Assembly (NCBI GenBank): GCA_001799735.1
Contig: MGUA01000005.1
Span: forward strand, 15,763 to 79,762
Direction: 5' to 3'
From: Elusimicrobia bacterium GWB2_63_22
GTDB taxonomy: Bacteria > Elusimicrobiota > Elusimicrobia > Elusimicrobiales > UBA9959
Length of the DNA: 64,000 bases
The translations under genes and the position numbers were made by a program. Positions 19,626 to 37,507 of the stretch are shown here, in pieces; positions within the stretch are counted from its first letter, which is position 1, and each line of letters begins with the position of its first letter. The notes beneath the pieces are model-generated. The model saw nothing but the letters and a program-made list of their open reading frames with translations. It was not told where the DNA came from and did no database searches.

Positions 19626-19697
19626 GCGCCCGTAGCTCAGTGGTAGAGCATCCGCCTTTTAAGCGGGTGGCCGCGCGTTCGAATCGCGCCGGGCGCA
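19626..19697 (+). tRNA. tRNA-Lys (anticodon TTT), CCA not encoded
   Basis: Acceptor GCGCCCG/CGGGCGC, anticodon stem CCGCC..GGCGG-like with TTTTAAG loop, T-arm GCGCGTTCGAATCGCGC. Confidence 0.9.
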
Positions 19698-19734
19698 ATT
19701 ATAAACGACAGTTTCCAAGGGGGAAACACACATA

Positions 19735-20184
19735 ATGAAGAACACGAAAAAAGGTTTCACGCTGATAGAGCTGCTGGTGGTCGTGCTGATCATCGGTATC
19801 CTGGCCTCGATCGCCATCCCGCAGTACTTTAAAGTCGTGGAGAAAGCCCGCGTGGCCGAGGCTATGTCCCTCATCGCCAGCGTGAAGTCCGCCCAGGAAA
19901 GGTTCCTGGCCCGCGGCGGCACCTACACCAACGACCTTACCAAGCTCGACATCAGCTACCCCGGCATGACCGCCAACTCCATCGCCACCAAGTTCTTCGC
20001 CGGAACCGTGGTCAACGGCACCTGCGCCAGCGGCCCCTGCTTCATGATGACCGTGACCCGCCACACCAACGCGTCCAGCGTCGCCGCCCGCTACGGCAAC
20101 TACGCCCTGAACGTAAATGTGCCGGACAGGCCCCAGGTGCAGATGGCCGCCCCCTCGGCGGTACTCAACGAACTGGTGGACTAA
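19735..20184 (+). CDS. Type IV pilin-like protein (prepilin N-terminal methylation motif)
   Basis: MKNTKKGFTLIELLVVVLIIGILASIAIPQY. Confidence 0.92.
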   Translation: MKNTKKGFTLIELLVVVLIIGILASIAIPQYFKVVEKARVAEAMSLIASVKSAQERFLARGGTYTNDLTKLDISYPGMTANSIATKFFAGTVVNGTCASGPCFMMTVTRHTNASSVAARYGNYALNVNVPDRPQVQMAAPSAVLNELVD

Positions 20185-20320
20185 AGCCCGGAAAAAAATG
20201 AACCGCCACGGGCTCACCCTCGTGGCGCCCGGTGTCCAGAAGTGCGTTGCGCCAGCTTGAAGCGCGGGATATCCGTCTGCCGGCCTGGTCCGGCAGTGTT
20301 CCCCCGGCTCCACAACAAAA

Positions 20321-20345
20321 AAACCCGCCTCGGCGGGTTTTTTTA
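20321..20345. terminator. Bidirectional terminator between convergent genes
   Basis: AAACCCGCC-TC-GGCGGGTTTTTTT. Confidence 0.85.
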
Positions 20346-20361
20346 TGCCTTCCTGAATACG

Positions 20362-21594
20362 CTATTCGGCTTTCACCAGTTCCCCCGCCCCTGCCTCGTA
20401 GATCACAGACAGCCCGTCCCGCGCCAGCCAGAGGCGCGAACCGCGCCAGGCGAAAGCGGAGAGCGGGTTGCCCGGCCTGGAGGTCTTAAGCGTAAAGACC
20501 CCGTCCAGGGAAAGTGTGTCGTCGAGGTTGTGCCGGTACAGCCGGCCCGTGGAGGAGACCGCGGCCCACAGGTATTTCTTGGTCTTGTAGATCTGGTCCG
20601 GCTTCTCCGGCAGCTTGAAGGAAACCGTGGGCGTCAGTTCGGAGTCGGGCAGGCGCAGCACGGCGTTGCCCTCGCTGTCGCAGGTCCACAGGTATTCCCC
20701 GTCGTAGAACAGCGCGCTCACCTTGCCGGGCATCGGGAAACTCTTCAGCAGCGGCAGTCCGGGCGCCAGCCGCCTGGCTTCCACGGTCTTTTTCCAGGAG
20801 TCGGCCACGTACAGCGTGTCCCCGGCCAGGGCCAGGCCGCTGATGTGCGTTTTCTCCAGCGGGAAAGTCTGCTCCAGGCGGAGGCCGTCCTGCCCGTTGG
20901 CGTAGACGTAGACGGCCTGCGTCAGCCAGTCGCCGGCTACGAGCTGCTTGTCGTTCCACACCATGGCGGAGATATTTGCGGCTACGCCCGGGTATTCCTT
21001 ATGGTAGGCGGCGGCGGAAACTTTTGTCTGGCGGTACACCATGGCGCCGGAGAACAGCAGGATGGCGGCCAGGGCCGTCAGCGCGACGGGCCTGCGGGCG
21101 GGCCGGACTATGACCGGCTCCACCGGGGCGGCAACTACGGGCTCCGCCGCGGGCAGCGGCCTGAAAGGCTCAGGCGCCTTTTCCCTTACGGGCGCCTCAC
21201 TGCGGGGAGGGACCGCGCGGATCACGGCCGGGGTGCCGCCCTGCACGAATTTTTTTACGGTCTCCACCAACTGGGCGTTCTCGAAAGGCTTCTGCAGGTA
21301 TTCGCTCGCGCCCAGCTTCATAACGTCCACCGCGGACTGGATATGCCCGTAGCCGGTGATCATGATCACCGGCAGGGTGCCGTCAATTTTCTTCAGCCCC
21401 TCCAGCACCTCTATCCCGTCCATGCCGGGCAGGCGGATGTCGAGCAGCACCAGGTCGGGGCGGCTCTCGGCGACCATGGCCAGCGCGGAAGGGCCGTCGC
21501 CGGCCTCGGAGATCTCGTAGCCGCGCAGCTTGAGGACATTGCGCACCGCAAGGCGCATGTCGGGCTCGTCGTCAACAATAAGGATGCGTGCCAT
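20362..21594 (-). CDS. Response-regulator receiver domain fused via TM helix to a C-terminal propeller-like domain
   Basis: Receiver MARILIVDDEPDMRLAVRNVL..DLVLLDIRLPGMDG..YLQKPF; Pro/Ala linker; TM PVALTALAAILLFSGAMVYR; beta-repeats ISGLALAGDTLYVADS, VSALFYDGEYLWTCDSEGNAVLRL, KYLWAAVSSTGRLYRHN. Confidence 0.85.
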   Translation of the reverse strand: MARILIVDDEPDMRLAVRNVLKLRGYEISEAGDGPSALAMVAESRPDLVLLDIRLPGMDGIEVLEGLKKIDGTLPVIMITGYGHIQSAVDVMKLGASEYLQKPFENAQLVETVKKFVQGGTPAVIRAVPPRSEAPVREKAPEPFRPLPAAEPVVAAPVEPVIVRPARRPVALTALAAILLFSGAMVYRQTKVSAAAYHKEYPGVAANISAMVWNDKQLVAGDWLTQAVYVYANGQDGLRLEQTFPLEKTHISGLALAGDTLYVADSWKKTVEARRLAPGLPLLKSFPMPGKVSALFYDGEYLWTCDSEGNAVLRLPDSELTPTVSFKLPEKPDQIYKTKKYLWAAVSSTGRLYRHNLDDTLSLDGVFTLKTSRPGNPLSAFAWRGSRLWLARDGLSVIYEAGAGELVKAE

Positions 21595-21601
21595 ATTCCC
21601 C

Positions 21602-24600
21602 TCAGGCTTCAGGTAATTCGATTATCGCGGCGGCCCCCTTGCCGTGCTCGCTGGAAAGTTCCAGCGTGCCGCCGTGGGCCCGCACTACGTTCCTGGCCAG
21701 CGTAAGCCCCAGCCCCATCTTGCCTGGCCGGGTGGTAAAGAAAGGATGGAAGATCGCCCCGAGGTTCTTCTTTTCAACGCCTTCCCCTGTGTCCGCTATC
21801 TCCAGGCGCTGCCTGCCGCCGGCGGAGGAGACGGAAACCGTGATCTCGCCGCCCGAGGGCATGGCCTCGGCCGCGTTTACCAGCAGCTGCTCCAGCGCCG
21901 CGGCAAAACGCACACGGTCCAGGCTGACGGCTTTAAGTTTATCCCCGCCCTTGTGCCGCACCTTCACGCCCTTCAGCCGCCCGGAGGCGCGCAGCGAGGT
22001 CAGGACTTCGGCCAGCACCGAGGAGACGCGCTCCGGGGAGCGCTGCGGGATCACGGGCCTGGAAAAATTCATTATCGTGTCTATCTTCTTCTGCAGCGCC
22101 ACGATATTGCGCACTATCACGTCCAGGGACTCCTTGGCCCCCTCCGCCTCCGGGGCCTCGGAACAGAATTCCGCGTGGCTGCGGATGATGCTTATGGAAT
22201 TGGCTATCTGGTGCGCCACTCCGGCCACCAGTTCCTCGAAGTCCGGCATATAGCCGGGCGCGCCGGAGGACTGCCCCCGCGATTTGAGCTCGTCGAAATC
22301 CCTGCCGATCCTCTTCATGCGCGAGTTGACGTCGGAGAGCATCTTTTCCTTGATGACCAGCTTCTCCTCGGCTTCGCGCAGCATGGCGCGGTAAGGCCTG
22401 GCCTTAAGCTCCTCGCGCAGTTCCCGCTCGCGGCCCTGCAGCTCCGCCTTTTCGGCGCGGGTATCTTCCAGCTCGGCGCGCAGTTTCTCCAGGCGGCTTT
22501 CTTTGTCGGCCAGCAGGCGTTCCGCCTCCGTGGCCCTGGCAGAATGGGCCGGGGCCGATTTTTTGCGCATCATCGCCGCCAGGTTCTGCTTTTCCTTGCG
22601 CAGGGCCTCGGCCTCGTTCTTCAGCTCGTTCTCCGTCAGAGAAAGTTTGGAAATAGTGTTGTCGCGCTCCAAGATGCGGGCCTGGGCCTCTTTAAGCATC
22701 TCGTTCTCCGCCTGTATCTCCCTGGCGTATTTCTCCCCCAGTTCTATACGGCTGCGGCGCAGCAGGCCGCATTCCGCTTCCAGGCCGGACAGGGCCGAGC
22801 GCGCCTCGTCCAGCTCCAGTTCTTTCTGCTTGAGCAGCGCGCCGGCGTTGTGCAGCTTCCCGGAAAGTTCGGCATAACGCGCCTTCTCGGCGCCGGAAGC
22901 GGCGGCGGCTTCCTCTTCCACCTCGGCCACCCTGTAATTCAGAGTTTCTATTTCCACTTCCAGGGCCGACCTGGCCTCCAGGGCGGCCTCCAGTTCCATC
23001 TCGCGCTTTTTCAGCAGCGCCTGGGCGTCGCGCAGCCTGGCGGCGAGCTCGGAATGGCGGGTCTTTTCGGCCGCGCCGGAACCGGCGGCCTCGGTCTCCA
23101 CTTCGTTTATCCTGGCGCGCATCAGCTCCAGTTCCGAGAGCAGCGCCTCGCGGCCCTGCGCCGCGGACTGCAGTTCCATATCCTTCTTTTTAAGCAGGCC
23201 TTCCGCTTCGCGCAGCTTGGAAGAAACCTCGGCGTAGCGGGCCCTCTCGGCGCCGGAGGCCCCGGCGGCCCCGCTCTCTATATTCTTGATGCTGTCGCGC
23301 AGGGCTGCCACTTCGGCCAGGGCGGAATCTTTTTCCAGGTGGATGGCCTCGTTGGCCAGCACCATGTCGTCGTACTTGCGCAGCAGGGCGGTATACTTGC
23401 CGGCCTGTTCCTCCAGGGCGGCCATAAGCCCGGCGGCCTCGCTGTCGCGCGCCAGGGACTCCTGGGAGACCAGCGCCGAGGCCGAAGCCTCGGCCTTTAT
23501 GGCGGCGGCGCGGAACTTGTTGCGCTCCTCCTCCAGGCTCTTAAGCCGGCCGGCGTTTATCTCGTTCTCGTTCTCCGCGGCGCGGAGCTTTGAAAAAGCG
23601 TTGTGGAGCTGGGCGGAAGAGAATTTCCATTTTTCCTCGGCGTCGCCAAGTTCCCGCAGCAGGGTGTTCTCCCTGGCCCTGAGCTGGGCGTTCTCCTCTT
23701 CCTTGGCGCGCAGCGCCGCCTGGGAGTCGCTCAAGGCGGCCTGCGAGGAACGGACCTTCTCCAGGCTGCGGGCGGCCTCGGCGGACAGTTCGGCTTCCAG
23801 TGCGTCCACCCTGGCGGCCAGCGAGGAGGCCAGTTCCTGGGCGCGCTCGGCGGTATCCTTGCCGCTGCTGCTCCTGGCGGCCTCCAGCTCCTTGAGCAGG
23901 GAGCGGATGCGCACGTTGGCGTCCTTGAGCACGGCTTCTTTTTCGGCCAGGGCGGCCTTGGCCTCAGAGTAAAGTTTTTCCTGGTGGGCGGCCTCGGCTA
24001 TGGCCTCTTCCATCCTGGGGGCGGCGGCGGCCAGCTTGCGCTCCAGGTCTTCGGCCTTGCGGATCTGCTCGCGCAGCTCGTTCTTTAAAAGTTCCACCTT
24101 CAGCGTGAAGCCTTCCTCGGAGCGGGTGCCCTCCTGGGCGGCCTGTTCGAGGCGTTTTTCAAGGCCTTCGCGGATCTTCACGTACTTCTGGATCTGCGAC
24201 TCGCGCTCCTTGACGGTGGCGCGCTCCAGCGTCAGTTCCGCCTTGAGCTCCTCGAGGGAGCGCCAGATCTTATCCACCTCCGCCTCTTTGTCCTTGAGGA
24301 CGGAGCGGGCGCTGTTGACGTAAAGTTCTTTATCCGCGGCCCGGGATCTCTCGTCATCCAGGGCCTTGGACGCGGCCTCCAGCCGGCGGGCCAGGTCGTC
24401 GCGCTCGGAAGCCAGGGAGATAGCGGCGGTGCTCTCGCGGGAAAGGGCGTTCCTGGCTTCTTCCAGTGAGGCCGTCAGCGCGTTTTCCTTGCGCACAAAA
24501 CGCTCCATCTCCCCGTTATAGGCCTCGCGCGCGGAGAACAGCTGGTCCTCGAGCTCCTTTATCCGGGCGCCGAGGGTCTCCTCCCGGCCGTGCAGGTCGG

Positions 24601-24667
24601 AGAGGAAGCCCTCGAGCTCGGAGTTGAGCCCCTCGAGGTCGTTGATGTGGTTTACTTGGTCTTCCAT
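21602..24667 (-). CDS. Histidine kinase with ~750-residue N-terminal coiled coil, no TM
   Basis: Long heptad-type coil, then FEELVAGVAHQIANSISIIRSHAEF (HisKA), LLVNAAEAMPSGGEITV (N box), IADTGEGVEKKNLGAIFHPFFTTRPGKMGLGLTLA (G boxes). Confidence 0.88.
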   Translation of the reverse strand: MEDQVNHINDLEGLNSELEGFLSDLHGREETLGARIKELEDQLFSAREAYNGEMERFVRKENALTASLEEARNALSRESTAAISLASERDDLARRLEAASKALDDERSRAADKELYVNSARSVLKDKEAEVDKIWRSLEELKAELTLERATVKERESQIQKYVKIREGLEKRLEQAAQEGTRSEEGFTLKVELLKNELREQIRKAEDLERKLAAAAPRMEEAIAEAAHQEKLYSEAKAALAEKEAVLKDANVRIRSLLKELEAARSSSGKDTAERAQELASSLAARVDALEAELSAEAARSLEKVRSSQAALSDSQAALRAKEEENAQLRARENTLLRELGDAEEKWKFSSAQLHNAFSKLRAAENENEINAGRLKSLEEERNKFRAAAIKAEASASALVSQESLARDSEAAGLMAALEEQAGKYTALLRKYDDMVLANEAIHLEKDSALAEVAALRDSIKNIESGAAGASGAERARYAEVSSKLREAEGLLKKKDMELQSAAQGREALLSELELMRARINEVETEAAGSGAAEKTRHSELAARLRDAQALLKKREMELEAALEARSALEVEIETLNYRVAEVEEEAAAASGAEKARYAELSGKLHNAGALLKQKELELDEARSALSGLEAECGLLRRSRIELGEKYAREIQAENEMLKEAQARILERDNTISKLSLTENELKNEAEALRKEKQNLAAMMRKKSAPAHSARATEAERLLADKESRLEKLRAELEDTRAEKAELQGRERELREELKARPYRAMLREAEEKLVIKEKMLSDVNSRMKRIGRDFDELKSRGQSSGAPGYMPDFEELVAGVAHQIANSISIIRSHAEFCSEAPEAEGAKESLDVIVRNIVALQKKIDTIMNFSRPVIPQRSPERVSSVLAEVLTSLRASGRLKGVKVRHKGGDKLKAVSLDRVRFAAALEQLLVNAAEAMPSGGEITVSVSSAGGRQRLEIADTGEGVEKKNLGAIFHPFFTTRPGKMGLGLTLARNVVRAHGGTLELSSEHGKGAAAIIELPEA

Positions 24668-27600
24668 ACCCTGAATTTATCTTTGAGCTGTTCCACGAGT
24701 TTCTGGGTCTTCAGGAATTCTTCCTGCTTGTCGCGCAGGGCGGAGCGGGAGGTTTCGGCCAGCAGTTCGGCCTCCGCGCGTTTCTTGCGTTCGTCCTCGA
24801 AAGCCTTCTTGAGCCGTTCCACCGCATGCTTCAGGGCGTCCACGTCGGAGCGGGTGCCCATGAGCTCTTCGGTCTTTTCCTGCAGTGCTGAACGGGTGGC
24901 CTGGACGGCCGCTTCGTTTTCCGCGCGCTTGCGCTTCTCCTCCTCGTAGGAGGCCTTGAGGCGCTCGAAAGCCTGCCGGGTGCCTTCCGTCGCGGCCTTC
25001 AGTTCCATCGTCTCCTCGCCCTTGGCGGCCAGCGCCTTTTTAAGGGCCAGCAGTTCGGCGGCTTCCGCCTTCTCCCTGCCGGAGATATCGGTCAGACTCT
25101 TTTCATATTCGGCCTGCTTGGCGCGTTCCTCTTCGAGGATTGCCTTCATCCGCTCCACCGTGTTGCGCAGCTCTTCCGCCTGGGTCCGCTGCTTCTCCAG
25201 CGTCAGGTCTTTGGCGTTGGCCACGTCCCGCAGGGCGGAGATTTCCGTCAGCAGGGCCTTTTCCTTCTGGGCGTATTCCTGCGCGCGGCGCTCCCCGGCG
25301 GAGTGGACCTCGCGGCGGCCGGCCTCGGCCTGCTTGGCCGCGGCGTCCTTAAGCGCCGCCGTCTCCTGGTCGCGGCGGGAAAGCTCCAGGCGCAGCAGTT
25401 CGCCGTCGCGTTTGAGCGCGTCTATCTGCTTGTCGCGGGCGGCTCTCTGTTCCTCGGCGGCCCGCAGTTTCAGCATGACGTCGTTATAATTCTTCTCCGA
25501 GACCTGGACCTCTTCCTCGAAGGTCTCCTTGAAATCGTCGTACTCGGCGCGGAGCTCGCGGTAGAGTTTCTCCCGTTCCGACAGCCTGGCCGACAGGGAG
25601 GACCCCTGGTCCAGGGCCTGCTTGCGCTCGGCGGAAAGCTCGGCCTGCAGGGTGGAAACCTGGGCCTGGCGCTCCTCGGCCGTCCGCTTGAGCTCCTCGA
25701 ACTTGCCGAGGGCGTCGGCCAGCTTGGAGCGGAAATCTTCCAGCGTGCGGCGGTAGGCGTCGTCCTGGTTCTGGCGCAGCTGCGAGGCGGCCTCGAGCTC
25801 GTGGTTCTTGCGCTCTATCACCTCGCCGTAGCGCTCTGCCTCGCGGCGCATTGCCGACTCCAGTTTCATCGCGGCGGCGGCCTCTTCCTCGGACAGCCTG
25901 GCGTTAAGCCCGGCCAGCTTTTCCTCCAGCGCGCGCCTTTCGGCGGCGAAGGCGGCCACAACCCCGTCCTTGTCCACGGCGGCCTTGTTCAAAGAGTCCC
26001 TGGCGCGCAGCAGTTCCACGTCGCGGGCGGACAGTTCCTCGTCCATCGCCCTTTCCTTCTCGGCGTAGACACGCTGCAGGCGCTCGCGCTCCAGGAGCAT
26101 CAGCTCCTCGCGCTCCAGCTTGGAGGCCTCGAGGGCGCGGACCAGCTCCGCGATCTTGTCCTCGCGCAGGCGGATGGTCTCGGCCAGGCGGGCGGTCCTG
26201 TCGTCCAGTTCGGCGCCGCCGCGGGCGCGCTCTTCGGCCACGGCGGCCTTAAGGTCTTCCGCGGCTTTCTGCCGCAGCAGCCTGAAATCGTCCCCGGCCT
26301 TCTGCAGGGAGAGCCGGAGGGAATTGATCTCGTCTTCCTTGCGCCCGACCTCGGCGGCGAACTCGGCGCTCCGGCGCTCCAGCTCGTCGGCGAACTTCTG
26401 TTTGTCCAGGGCGTGGCGCTTCTCGGCCTGCACGGCCTCGTCGGCCAGCTTCTGGTCGTACTCGGACTTCAGCTTGGCGCGCAGGGCGGCCTGCTCGGAA
26501 AGGGCGCGCTCGTGGGAGGAATCGATGTCCCGGCGGAGGGCAGCGACCTGCTCCTTGGCGGTATTCTTGTCCTTGGACAGGTCTTCTATCTCGCGGCGCA
26601 GGTGGGAGATCTCCTCCACCTTGAGCTTGAGGCTATCCTCGTAAATGCGGCCGGCGGTCTCTATCTCGGAGCGCAGGGCGGCGGTGTGCTTCTCCATCTC
26701 CACCTTCAGCCGCACGTCGTACTCCGACTGCAGCTGCTTCTCGCGGAAGGAGAACTCCTCCTGCTTGACGCTGTGCTGCGTCTGCAGCTGCTCGATCTTG
26801 TGCGCGAAAGCCTCGCGCTCGGCCTGCAGGGTCTTGATGGTCTCTTCGAAAGTGCGCAGGTTGCGCTGCAAATAGTCTATTTCGTCCTGGCGCTTGCCCA
26901 GGTCCTCGCGGTAGCCGCGCTCGATGTCGGCCAGTTTTTCGGCAAAGCGGTTGCGCTCGTGCTCGACGGCGATCTTGAGGCGCTTGGGGATCTCCACTTC
27001 CATCTCGCGGAAGCGGCCCTTCTCGGACTCCGCGGCATCGGCGGCCTTGGAGAGGCGGGTCTCGTAATCGGCCTGCTGCTGCTTCTTCTCGGTCTCGAGG
27101 GTGCGGATGACGCTCTCGAGGCTGCCGATGGCGTCTTTGTAGCGGTTAAGGTCCTCGTCGCGGCGCTTGACGGCCTCGGGGAATTCTCTAAGCTGTTTTT
27201 CGAGCAGCTGGACCTTCACCTTGTAATCGTCTATCTCCTGGTTCTTCTCCAGGACCTTCTTGTCGATCTCCAGATCTTTGGTCTTAAGGGCGCGCTCGCG
27301 CTCCTCGGCGTCCTTCTGCCAGCTGTCCTTGGCCCATTTCAGGACGGCTTCCTGTTTTTTGAGCTCGTCGCTGACCTGGCGCTCGCGCTTTTCCAGTTCC
27401 TCGACGCGGTTGCGGTAGGAGGTCTCCAGCGCGGCCTTCTGGTCGCGGAGCTCCTCGGTCAGGCGGGCCTTTTCCTCTTCCAGGCGGCCGCCGTACACGC
27501 GCTCGGCCTCCTGCTGCTTGGCCAGCTGCTCCTGGCGCAGCTGCCACAGTTCCCCCTCCACCTGGCCCCAGCGGCCGCGCAGCTCCTCGGCCTTCTTCTG

Positions 27601-27975: not shown

Positions 27976-28012
27976 AGTAGCGTTACCAAAGAATTCATTT
28001 TAAAATTTTCTG

Positions 28013-29431
28013 TCAGGGCAGCGCCAGTACCTGGCCCGGCTTCACCTCGCCGCCGCGGCCAAGCGAGCCGGCGTTGGCGCGGTAGATCTCGGGCCAGCGC
28101 TCGGAGTCGCCGTAGATGGCGGCGGCTATGCTCTCCAGGGTGTCGCCTTCCTTTACCACGTAATTGCGGCGGACGGGCTGGGCGGCGGGCGCGGGTTTAA
28201 CCGCGGCGGGCTTGGCCGCGGCGCGCGCCTTAAGGGCTTCCATGTCGGCGCGGGCCTTGTCCAGTTCCTGCCTGAGGGATTCTATCTCGCGCGAGACCTC
28301 CGACTGCTGGGGCCCCGGGATCTGGGCCGGCACCACGGCGGGCTGGACCGGCTGCCGGGCTTGCTCGGAACTCTGCTTCACCACGGAGTCGAGCTTGTCC
28401 TGCAGCACGCGTATCTTCTCGCCCTGCAGGGAGATCTTTTCTTCGGCGCGGCGCAATTCGGCGGCGGCGGCAGCGGCGGCGGCCTGCTCGGCGCCGGCCG
28501 GCTCGGCCCCGAAGCGGAAAGAGAAAGCCAGCAGGTGGGAGCCCACGGTGCCGGAGATGCCGCCGATAGGCAGGCTGAAAGCGTAGTTGAACTCCGCCAG
28601 GCCGAAACGGCCGCCCAGGCCCATATTGACGGAGCGGCGGGCGTCGTTGCCGGCGGACAGGCCCATGCGCAGGGCGAAGCGGCGCTGGAAGAAGTATTCG
28701 GCGCCGGCGGAAAGGTTATAGTCGGAATCGGAGAAAGCGGCATCGAAGTCCAGCAGGCTGGACTTTACGGCGTAGGAGACGCCGGCGCGGACTTCCACCG
28801 GCAGCGGGTCGGAGGAGGCCAGGCCGAGGTCGGGCTTATTGAGGTTCTTGATGGTAAGGCCCAGCGCGTAGCGGGGCTCGGGGCGCCAGAAAAAGCCGAG
28901 GTCGGCGCCCAGGGCGCCCTTGGAGTAGCCGTCGGAGAAAACCGGGTCCATGGCGGTGTAGGCGTCGGAGACGTAGCCGCGGCGCAGGTACTTGAGCGAA
29001 AGACCGGCGTTGACGCCGCGGTACACGTGGGTGGCGTAGCTGACGGTGAAGGCGCTTTCGGAAAAGGCGTCGCTGAGGCGGATGTCGCTCCAGGAGAAAG
29101 CGGCGGCGCCGGGCAGGTAGCGCTTTACGGGCATGGCGAAGCCGAAATAGCCCTGGCCGATCTCGGAATCGTCGGTAAGGCCGGAGTACAGCCTGCCGTA
29201 CACGGCGGTCAGCTCCGGGGAGGTGGTCTCCACCAGGGTGGCGGGATTGGAGCAGGCGGCTTCCGCGCCCCCGGGGATGGCGGTAAAAGCCCCGCCCATG
29301 GCGGCGGCCCTCGCCCCGCAGGGAGAATTAGCGAAAGTAGCGTGAGCCTTCATAGAAAGCAGTGTCATAACGCAAAATATAACCGCCAGCAGCTTTGGCA
29401 CAGTTATTATTTTAGCTTTTAACTGTTTCAT
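28013..29431 (-). CDS. PorV/PorQ-like outer-membrane barrel with coiled coil and C-terminal LysM domain
   Basis: GARAAAMGGAFTAIPGGAEAACSNPATL (PorV/FadL-like N-terminus); RRNYVVKEGDTLESIAAAIYGDSERWPEIYRANA (LysM). Confidence 0.75.
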   Translation of the reverse strand: MKQLKAKIITVPKLLAVIFCVMTLLSMKAHATFANSPCGARAAAMGGAFTAIPGGAEAACSNPATLVETTSPELTAVYGRLYSGLTDDSEIGQGYFGFAMPVKRYLPGAAAFSWSDIRLSDAFSESAFTVSYATHVYRGVNAGLSLKYLRRGYVSDAYTAMDPVFSDGYSKGALGADLGFFWRPEPRYALGLTIKNLNKPDLGLASSDPLPVEVRAGVSYAVKSSLLDFDAAFSDSDYNLSAGAEYFFQRRFALRMGLSAGNDARRSVNMGLGGRFGLAEFNYAFSLPIGGISGTVGSHLLAFSFRFGAEPAGAEQAAAAAAAAELRRAEEKISLQGEKIRVLQDKLDSVVKQSSEQARQPVQPAVVPAQIPGPQQSEVSREIESLRQELDKARADMEALKARAAAKPAAVKPAPAAQPVRRNYVVKEGDTLESIAAAIYGDSERWPEIYRANAGSLGRGGEVKPGQVLALP

Positions 29432-29504
29432 AATTATTACCTAATCGTTAAAGCGGGCCCGCCGGCAGCTCCGGGCGCCCGCCCGCCTTAACCCCTGCCT
29501 CCGG

Positions 29505-31046
29505 TCACCGCGCCAGCACCACGGTGCCGTTGTAAGTCTTGTCGCCGGCCTTGAACTGGTAGATATAGATACCGGCCATGGCCTTGCCGCCGCCCTTACG
29601 GCTGCCGTCCCAGGCAAGCGAGGCCTCCGAGTTGTAGGTGCCTACCCGCAGGCTGGCCACTTCCGCCCCGGACAGGTCGTACACCTTGGCGCCGGAGATA
29701 TCGAGCCCCTCCGGGTTCTCGAAGATGATGTTGAAGTCGTCCCAGACGCCGTCGCCGTTGGGCGTGAAGATCTTCTTGGGCACGGTCTGCGTGATGCGGA
29801 AGGCCTGCGCCCTGATAACCTGCTTCACCTTGAAGACGCCGGTCTTGCGCGTAACTATGGACACGGTGCCGTCCGACGGGTTAACGGTGCCGCCCAGTTT
29901 AACGTCCTCGACCCCGTTGTTGTAGTAAACCGCGTAGTCGTAGGGCGTGTAGGCGGCCGAAGGCCCGAAGGCGTTGATAACGAAAGTCCCGGTCCTGGAA
30001 AGCGACATAGTAAGCGTCGCTTCGGAGCTGAGGTCCCGGTTCTGCTCGACGTTAGCCGCGTCCTTGACGCAGAACTTATAGGCCAGTATGGTGACGCCGC
30101 TTTCATACTGCGGCTGACGCACCAGGCACGGGCTCAGGCCCAGGTCGGCCAGCGCCTCGCTGACGGCCGGGGACATGTCCACCACGGCGCGCGCGTCTTC
30201 AGCTACGGTGCGCACGACCTCTTCCAGGCTATTGAGCCAGATGGAGGCGTCGCTGCGCACGTTGCTGCTATCCACGGATTTAACGTAGTACCACCGGGCG
30301 GCGGTCTGCGCCCCGGCGTTGTAGGTAAGGGTATTGCTTGAGACCGGCCCGACAAAATAGGCGGTGCCGCTGAGGGCCGTGCTGTAATAGATTTCGTAGC
30401 CCTGGCTCTTGAGCGCGACGGTGGCGCCCTCCATGTTGTACTGCACCGCGTCCCAGGAGATCACAAAGGAGCCGCCCGTTGTGACGCCGCTGGCCATGGG
30501 CGCGCGGGGTTTTATGGGCGGGGTCGCGAAAGCGGCGGTGGAGATGCGGCCGTACATATTGGAACTGTCGCGCAGCCGGAACGCCAGGTAATAGGTGGTG
30601 CCCGACGTCAGCCCGGTCTGGGAGCGCTGCTCCAGCACTTCGAAACCGAGCGCGGTCTGCACAAGGTAGGCCCCGACGGAGGTGTAGTTGACCTCGGTGA
30701 TGGAGAACGTAGCGACTTTCACTTCGAGCGAGAGGGACCCTTCGCCGGTGCCGTTGGTCCACTGGTACAGGGCAGCGGTGCCGGAGGTGGTGGAGGCGGA
30801 GACGCTGTAGACCGCGCCGGGGCCGTGGCTGGTGCCGGAATGCCCCGGGCGCAGGCCTATGCCGGCCGCGCCCATGGACGAGCCGGCCACTTCGCCGACG
30901 GTGGACTCCAGCCTGAAGGTGCCGCCGTCGGCCAGGCCCATGCCCGCGCTGACGGCCTTGGTCTCCATGCTGGCCGCGCTGAACGCGGGTATAGCCGCGC
31001 CCAACAGCGCCACGCCCGCGATCGCCCCTACGCTTTTATATTTCAT
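29505..31046 (-). CDS. Secreted FN3-like protein with FlgD-Ig/gliding-type C-terminal domain
   Basis: Fn3-like repeats; C-terminus KKIFTPNGDGVWDDFNIIFENPEGLDISGAKVYDLSGAEVASL...WDGSRKGGGKAMAGIYIYQFKAGDKTYNGTVVLAR. Confidence 0.7.
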   Translation of the reverse strand: MKYKSVGAIAGVALLGAAIPAFSAASMETKAVSAGMGLADGGTFRLESTVGEVAGSSMGAAGIGLRPGHSGTSHGPGAVYSVSASTTSGTAALYQWTNGTGEGSLSLEVKVATFSITEVNYTSVGAYLVQTALGFEVLEQRSQTGLTSGTTYYLAFRLRDSSNMYGRISTAAFATPPIKPRAPMASGVTTGGSFVISWDAVQYNMEGATVALKSQGYEIYYSTALSGTAYFVGPVSSNTLTYNAGAQTAARWYYVKSVDSSNVRSDASIWLNSLEEVVRTVAEDARAVVDMSPAVSEALADLGLSPCLVRQPQYESGVTILAYKFCVKDAANVEQNRDLSSEATLTMSLSRTGTFVINAFGPSAAYTPYDYAVYYNNGVEDVKLGGTVNPSDGTVSIVTRKTGVFKVKQVIRAQAFRITQTVPKKIFTPNGDGVWDDFNIIFENPEGLDISGAKVYDLSGAEVASLRVGTYNSEASLAWDGSRKGGGKAMAGIYIYQFKAGDKTYNGTVVLAR

Positions 31047-31124
31047 AAAAAGCCATCCCGCCTGTATTTACCACCAGCTTTAGCTACCCCGGGCCGGCAA
31101 TAAAACCCGGCCCGGACACAACGG

Positions 31125-33392
31125 CTAATTACTCTTATTTGCTATCCAGGTAGCCTCGTCATAAACAATGAAGCGCACATATTTCCACTGGTCAGCCGCA
31201 GCTAGAGGACTGGCAGCTCCACCGACAATCGAGTCTCCAGCGTCCGCGGCAAAAGTGACATCGTTAAGACTACCGTCAACTCTATAGAGATATATCTCTT
31301 TGCCTATGTTACTCGCTGTCGCTGCCGGCAGAGTTATCGCGACAGTAGCAGCGGTACAGTCAGCATAGACGACCGTATCCGTTGAAGTCACAGTATAGGC
31401 AGCCTGAACAATCGTGACAGGAGTCTGAACCAGTTTATCCATCCCGACATTCACGATGTTAGTGGATACTATCGTGGCACCCAGCAGGTCGCCATTCAGG
31501 CTGCCCGCGGTGAACTTCGTCAGGTCGAAGCCGCTGGCCGCCAGATCGCCGTTGGCGATCGTGCCGTCAAAAATGTCGCCGGTCACTACGCTGTTGGCAA
31601 GGCTCAGCTTGGAATACGCTATCGCGGCCGCACCATCTACGTCGGCGTTCACGATGGCGAGCGAGGCCAGCTTGCTCTTGGCTATAGCGGCACCCGCGGC
31701 AATGTCGGCGTCGGCTATCGTGCCGTTGACGATGTTAGTGGATACTATCGTCGCGCCCAGCAGGTCGCCATTCAGGCTGCCAGATGTGAAATTACCAATA
31801 TCAAACACTCCGGAGGCCAGGTCCGCGGCTGCTATGCTGCCGTCCACGACATGGGTAGATACTATGGTGCCAGCAAGGTAATCCGTGTTCAGTTTACTAT
31901 CCGCGTTTAGCGCGGCCACACCGTTGGCTGCCGCCTTCTGAACCAGCGGGATCTGCGCGTCATTCGTTACATTGCTTAACCCGACCTGAGTTTTGGTAAC
32001 GCTGTGCGGGTTGGTAACGTTGGCGACATGGTTTGTCAGGGTGGTGGCATCCGCGGACACATCGCGGCCGTCCACGTTGCCGGAAACGGTTATATCGCCG
32101 GTAACATGCAGAGCGGAGGAAGGCGTGGCGTTGCCTATGCCCAGCCTGAAGTTGACGGTATCCCAGAAAAGGCTATTGCTGCCGCTCAGGGAAGAGCCGG
32201 TGGCCCAATAAGAGAGCTGACCAGCGAGGCCGGCGCCGGTAACGGTGCCGCCCGCGCCGGTCTCGTCGGTGCCGCAGGCCCATGCCCCGGCAGCCGCCTT
32301 AAGCACCTGGCCAGCGGCGCATATCGACTGGGTGTACATGGCGTTAAAGGCTATAGAGGAAGATATAACTCCGGAACCCAGAGTGCCGCTGGCGATATTA
32401 CCGGCAGGGACGCCGGAACCCACCTTGGACCCGGAAAGGGACCCGTCCAGCAGGTCGTCAAGGTCTGTGTCCCAGGCCTGTACGGCGGAACCGATGCCAA
32501 GCCCCAGGCGCGCGCGCACGGCGGCGTCATCGTAGAAGCCGGCCAGGGCCACGGAAGAGATACCAAGCAGCGAAGAACCGTCTCCGCCGGTGGATATTTT
32601 CCCGCCCAGGGCCGTAGTGACGGTAGAGAGGTCCACAAGCGTTACTGGAACAGTAACAGTATTGGCCAGTTTAGTGCCAAGGGCCGCGGTAACGGTGGAG
32701 AGGTCCACGTGGGTAGCGGGAACGCTGCCGGTCAGTTTAGAAGCGGACAGGCTGGCTATCTTGGCGTCGGTGACGTTGGAGTCCGCGATCTTGGCGGTAG
32801 TCACGTTAGCGTCGGTTATCTTGATCGTGGTGATGGCATTGTCCGCCAGCTTGGCGGTGGTGATGGAACCGTCGGCTATGGCGCCGGCGCCCAGGCCGGT
32901 CAGCGCGGAACCGTCGCCGTAGAATTTGGAGGCGGTAACGTGGCCCGCCACGGTGATGTAGGTGGAGATCGAAACGCCGGTGGCGGAGGTGATGTTGCCG
33001 GCGGAGAGGGCGAAGGGCACGGAGACCAGCTGCACGCGGGGAGCCAGGGTTACCGCGTCCACCACGACTTCCAGAAAGCGGTCATCTGCGGCGTAGACGG
33101 CGGAGGTAAGCGGGTCTACGGAACCGAGCTTTACGCTGAAGATGCCGTTTTCCAGAGTTACGGTCTGGGGTTCGTCCCAGAGGCAGGTGTTGCCCACGCT
33201 GCAGGTGGCGGAACAGGCGCCGGCCAGCGTATCGCAGATGCGGAAGGTAACGGCTTTAGATCCGCTCATCGGGTTGCCGTTATTGTCCACCAGGCGGCCC
33301 TGGTAGTTTATGTAGTTCGGGACAGCCGCCGCGTACAAGGGCAGCAGCAGTACCGTTAACACCGCCATAAGGTTGGATTTGAGCATCTTCAT
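31125..33392 (-). CDS. Large secreted repeat (tail-fibre/adhesin-like) surface protein
   Basis: Start reset to MKMLKSNLMAVLTVLLLPLYAAA signal peptide; YINYQGRLVDNNGNPMSG domain; repeats such as GSLNGDLLGATIVSTNIVNG and ITTAKLADNAITTIKITDANVTTAKI. Confidence 0.7.
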   Translation of the reverse strand: MKMLKSNLMAVLTVLLLPLYAAAVPNYINYQGRLVDNNGNPMSGSKAVTFRICDTLAGACSATCSVGNTCLWDEPQTVTLENGIFSVKLGSVDPLTSAVYAADDRFLEVVVDAVTLAPRVQLVSVPFALSAGNITSATGVSISTYITVAGHVTASKFYGDGSALTGLGAGAIADGSITTAKLADNAITTIKITDANVTTAKIADSNVTDAKIASLSASKLTGSVPATHVDLSTVTAALGTKLANTVTVPVTLVDLSTVTTALGGKISTGGDGSSLLGISSVALAGFYDDAAVRARLGLGIGSAVQAWDTDLDDLLDGSLSGSKVGSGVPAGNIASGTLGSGVISSSIAFNAMYTQSICAAGQVLKAAAGAWACGTDETGAGGTVTGAGLAGQLSYWATGSSLSGSNSLFWDTVNFRLGIGNATPSSALHVTGDITVSGNVDGRDVSADATTLTNHVANVTNPHSVTKTQVGLSNVTNDAQIPLVQKAAANGVAALNADSKLNTDYLAGTIVSTHVVDGSIAAADLASGVFDIGNFTSGSLNGDLLGATIVSTNIVNGTIADADIAAGAAIAKSKLASLAIVNADVDGAAAIAYSKLSLANSVVTGDIFDGTIANGDLAASGFDLTKFTAGSLNGDLLGATIVSTNIVNVGMDKLVQTPVTIVQAAYTVTSTDTVVYADCTAATVAITLPAATASNIGKEIYLYRVDGSLNDVTFAADAGDSIVGGAASPLAAADQWKYVRFIVYDEATWIANKSN

Positions 33393-33456
33393 ATTGCCTC
33401 CAGAAACTCCGCTAGTGGACGATAAAATTTGCATGGGGTTCCCCACCTTTTTATAT

Positions 33457-33472
33457 AGCAACGACTTTGCCA
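33457..33472 (-). promoter_or_regulatory. Sigma-54 (-24/-12) promoter: TGGCAAAGTCGTTGCT on minus strand
   Basis: GG-N10-GC spacing with TGGCA and TTGCT boxes, 65 bp upstream of the surface-protein start at 33392. Confidence 0.75.
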
Positions 33473-33669
33473 AACCCTCGCTCTTTGAAACGGGGCCTGG
33501 CAGCCGGGAGCTGATAGCGGAATTATTTGCTGTTTCTGTTTTTGTCACTTGTCGTCCTCGCCTGCTCTACCCGAGCCGGAATGCGAGTTGCCTCACAGTG
33601 CTGTAAACAGATTATAGGAGATATACTGATAAAGAAAGAATACGGAAAGGTTAAATTGTTATTACAGGA

Positions 33670-33735
33670 CAGTGTAGACTAAAATCAACAGTGTAGATAA
33701 AAAACCACATTAAATTGTAGATAAAAATCTACAGT
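33670..33735 (-). promoter_or_regulatory. Candidate upstream activator sites for the sigma-54 promoter
   Basis: Three GTAGAY-AAAA repeats (near 33673, 33693, 33717), the last part of the perfect dyad TGTAGAT-AAAA-ATCTACA. Confidence 0.5.
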
Positions 33736-33737
33736 TA

Positions 33738-35114
33738 TCAACCCTGGATGCCGTATTCCTTAATTTTGTCGTACAGGGCTTTGCGGTCTATGGAGAGCAA
33801 TTTAGCGGCTTTTAACTTATTGCCGCCGGTTTGCGCCAGAGCCGCGCCGATAAGCCTGCGCTCGGTTTCGCCCCGGGACCGTTTCAGGTTTTCTTTCAGG
33901 TCGAAATCCTCGGGGGACATAGCGGCGGCCGGGGGCGGGCAGCCAGGCGGGTTCTGTCCGCCCAGGCCCAGATGCTCCGGCAGTATCTCCCCCCCGGAAA
34001 GCAGGGCCGCGCGGATTATAACGTTCTTAAGTTCGCGCACGTTGCCCGGCCAGGCATAGGCCGTCAGGGCGGCCAGGGCGGCGCTGGAGATGGACTCTAC
34101 TTTTTTATTAACCAGCCGCTCGGCCTCTTTCAAGAAGAAGGCTGCCAGCGCGGGGATGTCTTCCTTGCGCTCCGCCAGCGACGGCACGCGCAGGGTGAAC
34201 TGGTTAAGGCGGTGAAAAAGGTCCTCGCGGAAAAGGCCGTCCTTTATGCAGGCGGGCAGGTCGCGGTTGGCGGCCACGATCACGCGGGTATCCACCGGGA
34301 TATCCTTCTTGCCGCCGAGGTGGCGGATGCGGCGCTCCTCCAGCACGCGCAGGAGCTTGGCCTGCGTGGCCAGGGTGAGGTTGGCTATTTCGTCGAGAAA
34401 AAGGGTGCCGCCGAAAGCGGTTTCAAAAAGGCCGGGCTTGCGGCGGTCCGCGCCGGTAAAAGCCCCGCGCTCGTAGCCGAACAGTTCGCTCTCCACCAGG
34501 TTCTCGGGCAGGGCGCCGCAGTCCAGCGCCACAAAGGGGCTGCCGCCGCGGGTGCTGCGGCGGTGTATCTCGCGCGCCCACACTTCTTTGCCCGAGCCCG
34601 ACGGGCCGGAAAGAATGACCGTCAGGTCGGTGGCCGCCACCTGCGCGGCCAGGTCCGCCGTCTGCTTTATTTCTTTGCTGGCGCCAAAAACGGGTTCGGC
34701 GCCGTGCGCTTTTTTAACGTGGCTGCGCAGCGCGTCGAACTCGCGGCGCAGGCGGCGCTCTTTGACGGCCTTGTCGATGATGAGCAGCAGCTCCTCGTTG
34801 CCGAAAGGCTTTATCAGGTAGTCCAGCGCGCCCAGCTTCATGGCCTTCACGGCGCTGGTAACGTCGGCGTGGCCGGTGAGGATGATGACCGGCAGGCCGG
34901 GGTCCTCGGCCTTCAGTTTCTCCAGCAGGGTCAGGCCGTCGGCGTCGCCGAGCACCATATCCAGGATCACCGCGTCGAAGGTGAGGGCGTCGGCCAGGGA
35001 CAGGGCCTCGGCGCCGGAGGAGGCCGCGGCGCAGGCGTGGCGGCCGGCCTCAAGGGCGGCTTTAAGCACGTAGCGCGTGTCGGCGTCGTCTTCGGCGATG
35101 AGGATATTGGCCAT
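33738..35114 (-). CDS. NtrC-family sigma-54-dependent response regulator
   Basis: Receiver (VILDMVLGDADG), AAA+ with FGYERGAFTGADRR (GAFTGA loop), FIS-type HTH TGGNKLKAAKLLSIDRKALYDKIKEYGI. Confidence 0.95.
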   Translation of the reverse strand: MANILIAEDDADTRYVLKAALEAGRHACAAASSGAEALSLADALTFDAVILDMVLGDADGLTLLEKLKAEDPGLPVIILTGHADVTSAVKAMKLGALDYLIKPFGNEELLLIIDKAVKERRLRREFDALRSHVKKAHGAEPVFGASKEIKQTADLAAQVAATDLTVILSGPSGSGKEVWAREIHRRSTRGGSPFVALDCGALPENLVESELFGYERGAFTGADRRKPGLFETAFGGTLFLDEIANLTLATQAKLLRVLEERRIRHLGGKKDIPVDTRVIVAANRDLPACIKDGLFREDLFHRLNQFTLRVPSLAERKEDIPALAAFFLKEAERLVNKKVESISSAALAALTAYAWPGNVRELKNVIIRAALLSGGEILPEHLGLGGQNPPGCPPPAAAMSPEDFDLKENLKRSRGETERRLIGAALAQTGGNKLKAAKLLSIDRKALYDKIKEYGIQG

Positions 35115-35116
35115 AA

Positions 35117-35146
35117 TGACTGGATCCCGGCTTTCGCCGGGATGAC
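35117..35146. repeat. REP-like palindromic element TGACTGGATCCCGGCTTTCGCCGGGATGAC
   Basis: ATCCCGGC-TTTC-GCCGGGAT hairpin; encodes the familiar 'DWIPAFAGMT' peptide in the antisense ORF. Confidence 0.7.
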
Positions 35147-35148
35147 AC

Positions 35149-36258
35149 CTAGACGGTCTTCTTGAACCTCAGGCTGATCGAGGCGCCGCCGCCGGCGGGC
35201 GAGGAGGCGATGATGCGGCCGCCGTGCTCGTCCATGATCTGGCGGGCCAGGTAAAGGCCCAGGCCGGTGCCGTTCTCCTTGGTGGTGAAGAAGGGCTGGA
35301 AAAGATTTTCGAGGATGGAAGCTTCCATGCCGGGGCCGTTGTCGGTAATGGTAAGAAACACCTCCTGCTCCGCGTCCAGCCAGCCGCAGCTTATCCGGAT
35401 GCGCCCGTCGTGGCGGCCGGCCAGCGCCTGCAGGGCGTTATTGAGCAGGTTGTAGATGACGCTGTGTATGTAGTTCGGGTCCAGGAAAACCTTGGGCGCG
35501 TGGCCGCAGTCCTTCTCCACCGCCACCTTGCCGGACTTAAGCGAGCTGTCTATCAGCTCCAGCGCGGATTCGGCGGCCGTGTGCACGGAGTAAGGCTCCA
35601 GCCGGCACATGCCGCTGCGGGAAAAGTCCAGCAGGGTCTTTACTATCTTGGAGGCGCGCCGGGCGTTGCGCTCTATCAGCTCGGCGCCGGTGCGCACCTG
35701 ATCCGGCTGGCCCTCCTGGGCGCGCAGCAGCTCCGACGTGGAAAGGATCACGTGCAGCGGGTTCTTGATGTCGTGCGCGAACATGGAGGTGAGCTGGCCG
35801 ATGGAGGTGAGGCGGTTGAGCTTGCGGGCCGCGTTCTTAAAAACGTGCGGGTCCTTGAGGGCGGACCATTCGTCGGGCGAGACGGGCGACAGGTACAGGC
35901 AGAAACCGTTGACCTCCCCCTTGTCGTCCTTGAGCGCCAGGACGGTGAGGAAAAGGCGGGCGATGCTGCGCGAGGCGGTCAGCATGTAGAACCGGTAGTT
36001 GCGCACCACGCCGTTGCGGGCCGCCAGCGCCGCCATGTCCGAAAATTCTTTAAGGTCCTTCTCCAGCACCAGCGAGGAGACCGGTTTCCCGTCGAGCGAC
36101 TGGCCGGCCCAGCCCAGCAGTTTAAGGGTGGCGGCGTTCATCAGCAGGACGTTGAGGTCCTTGTCCAGCACCAGCATCGGCTCCTGCGCGTTGAAGAAGA
36201 TAGCGTTGAAAAGGCTGCGCTGAAGAGCGTGCGGGGCGGTGTCTTTTTTTGTGATCAT
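35149..36258 (-). CDS. PAS-domain histidine kinase, NtrB-like, soluble
   Basis: MLVLDKDLNVLLMNAATLKLLGW (PAS), FAHDIKNPLHVILSTSELL (H box), ITDNGPGMEASILENLFQPFFTTKENGTGLGLYLA. Confidence 0.92.
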   Translation of the reverse strand: MITKKDTAPHALQRSLFNAIFFNAQEPMLVLDKDLNVLLMNAATLKLLGWAGQSLDGKPVSSLVLEKDLKEFSDMAALAARNGVVRNYRFYMLTASRSIARLFLTVLALKDDKGEVNGFCLYLSPVSPDEWSALKDPHVFKNAARKLNRLTSIGQLTSMFAHDIKNPLHVILSTSELLRAQEGQPDQVRTGAELIERNARRASKIVKTLLDFSRSGMCRLEPYSVHTAAESALELIDSSLKSGKVAVEKDCGHAPKVFLDPNYIHSVIYNLLNNALQALAGRHDGRIRISCGWLDAEQEVFLTITDNGPGMEASILENLFQPFFTTKENGTGLGLYLARQIMDEHGGRIIASSPAGGGASISLRFKKTV

Positions 36259-37310
36259 AACCCGGCCTTGTTCCGATAAAGGTTCACGCTTCGCCTGGAA
36301 ACACGTATCCCGTGAACAGCCTTGAGGGTTTCGGCCACTTCCGCGTCAGACAGCTTTTTTTGCCCCGCCCCCAGGATGTCTTTTATTTTATCAATTATAT
36401 ACGCGTTTTTCTGCCTGAAAAGGCTTTTTAATTTTATTTCCTCCCCCTGCGGCGTTATCAGCGTTTTTGCGGAGATAAGCCGGGAGACGGTGCCGGGGTT
36501 CAGCCCGACGGCCGCGGCCAGCTCCCGCTGCGTAAAAGGCTTAAGCGGCCCCTCGCCGAGGAGGAAGCTTTTCTGCCGCTCTATTATGGCGGAAAGGGTG
36601 CGGTGAAAGCCGGCCTTGCGCCAGCCGATGCGCTGGGCGCGCGAGGCCAGGTTGCGGACGCGGGCGGCCTCCGCCGGGGACAGGGCGCCGCTCTTGAGCA
36701 GGCGCGAGAAGGCTTCCCCGTCGATAACATAGGCCCCCTTGAGATAGGAGGGATGCGTGTATTCGATAAAGAGCCGGCCTTTCTCGGCGGCTATCCGGGC
36801 GGCGCAGCGCAGGAAAAGCCCGGGCAGGGCGGCCGGCGCCACTCTTTCATGAGAAAGGATGAAGGCGTCCACGAAAGATTTAAGGGCCAGGACTTCGGCC
36901 TGGGTGAGGCCGCACTCCTTGGCGGCGGAGGGCGGAGAGAACGGCAGGCCGGAAAGAAAACAGCTCTCAAAAGCGGCCGCCCCGGCGCGGCGGGCGAGAT
37001 CCAGCATGGCGGGCCTCTCCGACAGCCATTCCCCGGCCGTGGCGCCCGGCCCGGCGGCCGTGGCCAGGGCCTCGTCGCCGCAGGCGAGGGAAAAAGCGTA
37101 GGAGGCCCCGGGGAAGCGGCGGCGGCGCAGCGGCGCGCGGCCATGGGCGTCCGGTTGGAACAATTTAGAGAACAGCGGGTCGGCCTCCAGCTCGGCCGCC
37201 TGGCCCAGAAAATCAGCCTCCGGCACGGCCAGCACGGAGAAGAGCCGCAGGTCCTGCCGCTGGACCTGCCGCTGAGAGAGCTGCTGCGCCTGTTTTACCG
37301 GCTTTTTCAT
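36255..37310 (-). CDS. rpoN: RNA polymerase sigma-54 factor, divergent/short
   Basis: Gln-rich region I-like N-terminus; LKPFTQRELAAAVGLNPGTVSRLISAKTLITPQGEEIKLKSLF; RpoN-box-like VSRRSVNLYRNKAGL. Confidence 0.8.
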   Translation of the reverse strand: MKKPVKQAQQLSQRQVQRQDLRLFSVLAVPEADFLGQAAELEADPLFSKLFQPDAHGRAPLRRRRFPGASYAFSLACGDEALATAAGPGATAGEWLSERPAMLDLARRAGAAAFESCFLSGLPFSPPSAAKECGLTQAEVLALKSFVDAFILSHERVAPAALPGLFLRCAARIAAEKGRLFIEYTHPSYLKGAYVIDGEAFSRLLKSGALSPAEAARVRNLASRAQRIGWRKAGFHRTLSAIIERQKSFLLGEGPLKPFTQRELAAAVGLNPGTVSRLISAKTLITPQGEEIKLKSLFRQKNAYIIDKIKDILGAGQKKLSDAEVAETLKAVHGIRVSRRSVNLYRNKAGL

Positions 37311-37384
37311 AGGGAAAACTACCCGTCCAGATTATAACAATTTTGCCCCTTTCTAAAGGGCCGCCCCCCTCCTCGTCGGCAAAG

Positions 37385-37413
37385 TTGACAATACCCCGCA
37401 GTATTGATAGATT
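37385..37413 (+). promoter_or_regulatory. Sigma-70 promoter TTGACA-N17-TAGATT upstream of nrdJ
   Basis: -35 37385-37390, -10 37408-37413; spacer contains inverted repeat AATAC-CCCGCA-GTATT. Confidence 0.55.
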
Positions 37414-37507
37414 ACAGTTAATTCCGATAAAGATTTTTGGCGCGGTTCACGACAGAAACCCCTGCCCGCAAGCGTTTGGGGAGCCGGAGCGGGGCCGGGA
37501 AATACAT

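Follow-up and report, generated by a model that had tools for sequence, protein, structure and literature searches.

Do the nine genes that run along the minus strand from position 37310 to position 20362 of a 64,000-nucleotide stretch of DNA from Elusimicrobia bacterium GWB2_63_22 (the window; part of contig C5, GenBank MGUA01000005.1, in a 3.06-Mb genome) belong to one regulated system, or do they merely lie side by side? A first reading of the letters, made without database searches (the sequence-only reading), had proposed a sigma-54-controlled surface or sensory system here. Each gene that it named is an open reading frame at that place with the expected family matches, on the minus strand except for a pilin gene on the plus strand. 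We put a probability of roughly 0.6 on these genes forming one regulated locus, in which a locus-dedicated sigma-54 switch would control a surface/envelope operon with phosphorylation signalling to the periplasm. Direct support comes from gene content and order, from the conservation of the promoter and activator sites and their absence where the switch genes are missing, and from predicted topology and fold. We refer to the first three genes below as module A and to the remaining six as module B.

36255-37310, minus: rpoN-A, a divergent sigma-54 factor of 351 aa (Pfam Sigma54_DBD 2.8e-19, over cut-off)
35149-36258, minus: soluble PAS-HisKA-HATPase histidine kinase (Pfam; no transmembrane (TM) segment)
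33738-35114, minus: sigma-54 activator of NtrC/AtoC type (Sigma54_activat 1.2e-63, Response_reg, Fis helix-turn-helix (HTH) HTH_8)
31125-33392, minus: secreted chimeric fibre/adhesin, gene adh (signal peptide, MAT_N-like domain, tail-fibre-like repeats, variable C-terminus)
29505-31046, minus: secreted FN3-type protein with a C-terminal domain like type B of the type IX secretion system (T9SS) (CHU_C 29.8 bits, over cut-off)
28013-29431, minus: outer-membrane barrel of the PorV/PorQ family with a coiled region and C-terminal LysM (PorV_fam 2.7e-21; LysM 27.4 bits, over cut-off)
24652-27975, minus: cytoplasmic coiled-coil protein of 1107 aa (no TM segment or signal peptide, 50% DEKRQ, 0.2% proline)
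21602-24667, minus: coiled-coil protein of 1021 aa with C-terminal HisKA-HATPase, no TM segment (HATPase_c 5.8e-20, HisKA 3.8e-7)
20362-21594, minus: receiver-TM-propeller protein of 410 aa (receiver 1-119, disordered linker, TM helix 170-195, propeller 198-408)

The sigma-54 switch and its putative target promoter

One of two rpoN genes in the genome, rpoN-A is recognisable as sigma-54 only in its C-terminal half. TIGR02395 matches residues 228-349 only, at 72.5 bits (cut-off 277), and a profile of the rpoN-A family matches the sigma-54 chain 5ui5 over profile positions 165-347 (E=3.6e-28). This part holds a conserved DNA-binding domain with an HTH and an RpoN-box-like VSRRSVNLYR; the Pfam match, 5ui5 and the box together bear out the sequence-only reading, which had called the gene a divergent rpoN. 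The N-terminus is conserved among orthologues and too divergent for models of region I or core binding. Orthologues in congeners share 57-69% identity with rpoN-A, compared with about 30% for rpoN-B, the second divergent rpoN (L133:8871-9923, plus strand; G000:C32). A sigma-54 activator gene lies divergently beside rpoN-B, with solute-binding and kinase genes close by.

The kinase gene of module A keeps its position between rpoN-A and ntrC in relatives. Its earlier description as an NtrB-like kinase stands as far as the PAS-HisKA-HATPase architecture is concerned; the NtrB label itself is loose, the best model being AtoS. The activator, which had been proposed as an NtrC-like protein with GAFTGA, has a receiver, an AAA+ domain carrying that motif and a Fis-type HTH, and is 80-88% identical in congeners and 55-67% identical in other genera. 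In the mechanism that we propose, the cytoplasmic PAS kinase would phosphorylate this activator, which would bind palindromes behind ntrC and drive RpoN-A polymerase at a -24/-12 promoter before the fibre gene. The region between ntrC and the fibre gene holds the following elements:

33716-33733, minus: activator palindrome 1, TGTAGATTTTTATCTACA, upstream of adh, conserved in relatives
33692-33709, minus: activator palindrome 2, TGTGGTTTTTTATCTACA, 24-bp spacing conserved
33673-33690, minus: activator palindrome 3, TGTTGATTTTAGTCTACA, 19-bp spacing conserved
33612-33617, minus: TATAAT element in surroundings like those of a sigma-70 promoter, flanked by the activator sites and the -24/-12 promoter
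33455-33473, minus: -24/-12 sigma-54 promoter, TTGGCAAAGTCGTTGCTAT, conserved wherever module A and adh are both present in the family (23/23 genomes)

The palindromes are 18 bp long, of the type TGTRGA-N6-TCYACA, and lie downstream of ntrC, usually as three copies 24 and 19 bp apart. How specific are these sites? TGGCA-N6-TTGCTA has a single match in the 3.06-Mb genome, and so has the strict palindrome motif; the palindrome search was for the exact consensus, to which one of the three sites conforms, and both counts hold for strict motifs only. In the family, TGGCA-N6-TTGC and the palindromes accompany module A and the fibre gene in all 23 family genomes just mentioned, a few of them with one imperfect palindrome. 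We take the locus to go beyond chance: the motifs are unique in the genome, both strands of relatives' contigs with module B, 1.06 Mb in all, give no match to the promoter motif TGGCA-N6-TTGC, and dozens of genomes keep the gene order. Where sequence has been inserted behind ntrC, as in G012 (about 1 kb) and G027 (about 9 kb), the regulatory sites remained with the fibre gene. These insertions span L167:4320-5742 in G012, with a transposase-like reading frame, and L165:2833-11844 in G027.

G016, which is without rpoN-A and kept the fibre gene, has neither the palindromes nor the sigma-54 promoter. Most congeners have the TATAAT element at an unchanged distance from ntrC, and G016 retains it despite the loss of the sigma-54 sites; G032, G034 and G035, from three genera further off, keep palindromes and promoter without it. 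In these comparisons, sigma-54 control of the locus has strong support, and the promoter with candidate activator sites that the sequence-only reading had picked out proves to be, by strict motifs, unique in the genome, conserved with the sigma module and absent in G016. Like NtrC/AtoC systems that govern the bacterial exterior (PMC3162934), the locus combines a kinase, an activator, upstream palindromes and a -24/-12 promoter. Unlike them, it has its own divergent rpoN alongside, and judged by strict motifs the switch would have just one target promoter.

Conservation in the family and across the phylum

In the family (f1), the FN3, PorV, coil, coil kinase and receiver/propeller genes follow each other in this order where contigs are long enough, other genera included, and the cassette is usually followed by a convergent pilin gene and ftsQ. 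Furthermore, rpoN-A, the kinase gene and ntrC stand directly before the fibre gene in 22 relatives, four other genera among them. Both modules lie on one contig in the window, G010, G019 and G024, and G012 joins module A to the fibre and FN3 genes. Many relatives' contigs end in or near the fibre gene, which is single-copy in the genome apart from one weak relative. With that one relative only, paralogous adhesin repeats were rejected as the cause of the breaks; internal repeats may be responsible. Module A and the receiver/propeller gene occur together in 26 family genomes, are both missing in 6 and are discordant in 5, two of which are without the receiver/propeller gene in assemblies 81% complete. 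Both the rpoN-A module and a receiver/propeller gene are missing from f2, the sister family from the gut, which fits the reported absence of sigma-54 from Elusimicrobium minutum (PMC3162934).

For the phylum, the comparison covers retrieved loci with enough flanking DNA. A profile of the propeller alone finds matches in 146/341 Elusimicrobiota genomes, and a reduced cassette of FN3/CHU_C, PorV-LysM, kinase and receiver/propeller genes, without a separate coil protein, is present in families f5, f11, f23 and f27. Family f18 has the FN3 protein, the barrel-LysM protein and a propeller protein, with no recognisable receiver or kinase. Receiver/propeller proteins mostly group by family in their tree, with some weak forks and genus g15 of f1 standing apart, which is broadly consistent with vertical descent. 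The neighbourhood is thus kept in the genus, in other genera and, in reduced form, in other families, which refutes the idea that these genes are scattered in related genomes. Two loci show further variation. G003 (L037:1-4700, C2) has the most similar receiver/propeller protein, no rpoN-A and, at the start of the contig, a PorV C-terminal remnant before the coil gene. Family f14 encodes a secreted MAT_N-like-coil-LysM protein right after the receiver/propeller gene (L187:16817-17806, plus strand; L186:2253-2945, minus strand).

Several observations weigh against a single regulated locus. The Fisher test of the co-occurrence in the family (p=0.0008) is uncorrected for phylogeny, and the loss of module A together with the sites in G016 is a single event. 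Gaps of 37-78 bp separate the fibre, FN3, barrel and coil genes and permit internal promoters, and the TATAAT element lies upstream. Moreover, G016 and G003 keep the coil, coil kinase and receiver/propeller genes without module A, from which it follows that this part can exist without the sigma-54 switch. Could the sigma-54 module then serve the fibre gene only, next to an unrelated envelope-maintenance cassette? The two genomes would fit such a division, as would the f5, f11, f23 and f27 cassettes examined, which lie away from any rpoN and gave no sigma-54 site when four of their upstream regions were scanned. Against it stands how strongly module A and the receiver/propeller gene go together in the family. 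The arrangement in f14 (G190) also argues against it: here rpoN-kinase-ntrC, two palindromes and TGGCAACATAATTGC come directly before the genes of a coil kinase of 2078 aa and the receiver/propeller protein with no fibre gene between, an independent arrangement that links the switch to the signalling genes. We therefore regard two independent neighbours as unlikely and continue with one regulated locus, in which the six downstream genes may share a single transcript and their products may act as one physical machine. The coil and coil kinase genes have 16 bp in common.

Putative cargo, barrel and exporter

Among the products of the operon would be a chimeric fibre for secretion, an FN3 protein whose C-terminus resembles T9SS type B, and a PorV/PorP-like barrel. 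An adhesin-like secreted protein, as had been claimed, is indeed encoded directly behind the promoter; its start at 33548 was placed too early. That GTG start was rejected, with the conserved sigma-54 promoter lying within the longer frame, in favour of the ATG at 33392, at the signal peptide. The N-terminal part of the protein is conserved in relatives and the remainder is variable, with tail-fibre matches in PHROG. It resembles a MAT fibre and is not classed as one, because its match to Bdello_MAT_N (E=1.1e-7, 31.8 bits) is below the cut-off of 60. With the MAT fibres of Bdellovibrio (PMC10769870) it shares an N-terminal beta-rich domain after the signal peptide, a tail-fibre-like shaft and a variable C-terminus; unlike in that system, MAT_N is under the cut-off, any trimer is putative and there is no sign of predation. 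The purpose of the locus may be adhesion.

The FN3 protein owes its name to FN3-type matches from a predicted structure of medium confidence. Its C-terminal CHU_C/FlgD_ig-type domain is strongly conserved, with an FTPNGDG motif in the alignment of relatives, and of the genome's six CHU_C matches three are over cut-off. The gene adjoins that of a PorP/PorV-family barrel, which is the gene arrangement of a type-B C-terminal domain (CTD) cargo and its PorP-like anchor; in one f5 homologue of the barrel, PorP_SprF matches above cut-off. The type-B CTD proteins of Bacteroidota bind to PorP-like barrels adjacent to them, and SprB depends for its secretion on SprF, not PorV (PMC9143113). By analogy, the FN3 protein would be the cargo and the barrel its anchor, like SprB and SprF. 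The two may form a physical complex at the surface, and the coil-LysM tail would tie the barrel to peptidoglycan. G001:C17 (L205:1841-4294, plus strand) has a paralogous pair, a second PorV-like coil gene followed by that of a TM-propeller protein whose N-terminal part is without a Pfam receiver match.

How would such a cargo leave the cell? A divergent SprA/Sov-like protein of 1783 aa is encoded elsewhere (L132:7435-12786, minus strand; G000:C39) and could be the exporter. TIGR04189 has matches in 41/41 genomes searched, the small-genome gut family included, and 0/41 are over cut-off; against the Protein Data Bank (PDB), the SprA-like protein has no credible match by sequence. On the negative side of the balance, to be added to the points above, are its own TIGR04189 match (E=2.1e-36, 124.7 bits in three stretches, cut-off 200) and the PorV_fam score of the barrel (76.5 bits, cut-off 90). 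The same holds for PorU (the C25 peptidase) and GldM, which have no match in the genome, with control genomes equally silent. The search for T9SS genes that the sequence-only reading had suggested gave CHU_C cargo over cut-off, a divergent SprA-like protein below it, and no match for GldM and PorU, for which no control matched either. A full T9SS with motor and sortase was looked for and not found in the genome, a weak negative given the silent controls.

Compared with SprB-SprF and PG1035-PorP-PorE (PMC9143113), the locus is alike in placing a CHU_C-type secreted protein beside a PorV/PorP-family barrel, with the SprA-like protein elsewhere. It is unlike them in that the barrel has a coil-LysM tail of its own and is joined to a kinase and a receiver-propeller, in the missing PorU and GldM matches (controls silent), and in belonging to a phylum outside Bacteroidota.

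Coiled coils, kinase and receiver-propeller

The two giant coiled-coil proteins of the sequence-only reading, one of them a kinase, are both present at 1107 and 1021 aa. The coil protein is 60-75% identical in congeners, and the H-box of the coil kinase is AHQI in the sequences inspected. For the receiver fused to an extracytoplasmic propeller, the AlphaFold2 model (pLDDT 86.5) agrees with the earlier claim in predicting a receiver, one TM helix and a periplasmic propeller of five-bladed type. Basic residues before the helix suggest that the receiver is cytoplasmic and the propeller periplasmic. Foldseek relates the receiver to Spo0F/NtrX and the propeller to glutaminyl cyclases (E ~1e-13, TM-score 0.71-0.74 by target length), the count of five blades coming from five sequence repeats and the fold match. 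By sequence, the propeller matches no PDB chain at E up to 10 and no Pfam propeller or cyclase family significantly. It therefore shares the beta-propeller fold of bacterial glutaminyl cyclases (3mbr, 3nol, 3nok) and, unlike a member, has no sequence match; membership of that family was rejected, the likeness being at fold level only.

In the alignment of the family, receiver Asp52 and Lys102 do not vary, and the aspartate motif is retained in 23/23 proteins across the phylum. The kinase carries its His and HATPase and the receiver its phospho-acceptor Asp and Lys, as the two halves of a two-component pair do. Together with their adjacency across the phylum, this suggests that the coil kinase phosphorylates the receiver/propeller protein. 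The last genes of the locus would then encode an inside-out pair: the coil kinase, with the coil protein as its scaffold, would pass phosphate to the receiver, and the inner-membrane protein that carries this receiver would adjust the anchored surface layer through its output, the periplasmic propeller. LapD is described as signalling inside-out to the periplasm (PMC3032553). The functional analogy is that a cytoplasmic signal passes via an inner-membrane protein to a periplasmic domain governing an adhesin. The two are not homologous: here a phospho-receiver takes the place of a c-di-GMP-binding domain, and the propeller that of LapD's own periplasmic output domain.

So does the propeller act, or does it sense? 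It could instead be an input or binding domain, a further point against the proposed mechanism, and sensing is the main rival: the propeller would register envelope or adhesin contact from the periplasm, with the receiver as a docking site or phosphate sink that recruits and tunes the coil kinase. Topology alone gives no direction. Kinase size across the phylum runs from 217-223 aa in f5 to a 2571-aa open frame in f14, and the f5 kinase is a minimal soluble HisKA-HATPase with no sensor domain, so that sensing might sit in the receiver-propeller. A complete receiver that keeps its Asp and Lys and lies beside its kinase, however, normally takes phosphate as output, and the reduced cassettes are followed by no other output domain or DNA-binding regulator. 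With these arguments we consider outside-in sensing improbable, though worth more weight than any other rival, and prefer the inside-out direction. It is tempting to extend that direction to the phylum, as a phosphorelay in which a soluble kinase acts on a receiver-helix-propeller that reconfigures a PorV/LysM-anchored type-B surface layer, with giant coils in several families and a dedicated sigma-54 in at least two. This wider proposal is tentative, and we hold it somewhat short of even odds.

Giant coils also bring to mind a motility or polarity apparatus, in which they would scaffold a gliding or pilus machine with the FN3/CHU_C protein as an SprB-like gliding adhesin. The CHU_C protein beside a PorV/PorP-like barrel recalls SprB-SprF, and a pilin gene adjoins the receiver-propeller gene in most relatives. 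The neighbours at this edge are:

19735-20184, plus: type IV pilin (N_methyl 2.6e-9), convergent neighbour
19626-19697: tRNA-Lys, just upstream of the pilin gene

The sequence-only reading was correct in placing a type IV pilin at the edge of the block. Its convergent orientation and the tRNA-Lys directly upstream led to its rejection as an operon member, and no sigma-54 site was found at the pilin gene; it probably lies outside the operon, tied to the locus by position alone. This arrangement, the lack of a GldM match (a weak negative) and the reduced cassettes without a separate coil protein make a motility role the least probable of the alternatives, and we return to the regulated surface locus as the preferred reading. 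Several relatives (L074:12241-13345, L075, L076, L080, L094, L097) have a further kinase/receiver pair between pilin and ftsQ. On the other side, beside rpoN-A, a ribonucleotide reductase gene (37343-41275, plus strand) has an apparent intein of about 410 aa between residues ~398 and ~812, which is patchy, many congeners aligning without it and others with it. A reading as anti-phage defence was dropped, the PADLOC matches being to a coil and to shared domains of ATPase or receiver type.

No account of this locus, or of T9SS-like components in Elusimicrobiota, turned up in the open-licence literature searched, in keeping with the proposal of an undescribed sigma-54-controlled system. Each element has a known relative. 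With strict promoter and activator motifs that occur once each in the genome, the locus makes an unusually clean sigma-54 case, and the SprA-like, CHU_C and PorV/PorP-like proteins suggest a T9SS-like cargo/anchor logic for Elusimicrobiota. Receiver domains normally act within the cytoplasm; a conserved receiver-TM-periplasmic propeller protein with its own kinase would offer a concrete case of phosphorylation signalling to the envelope.

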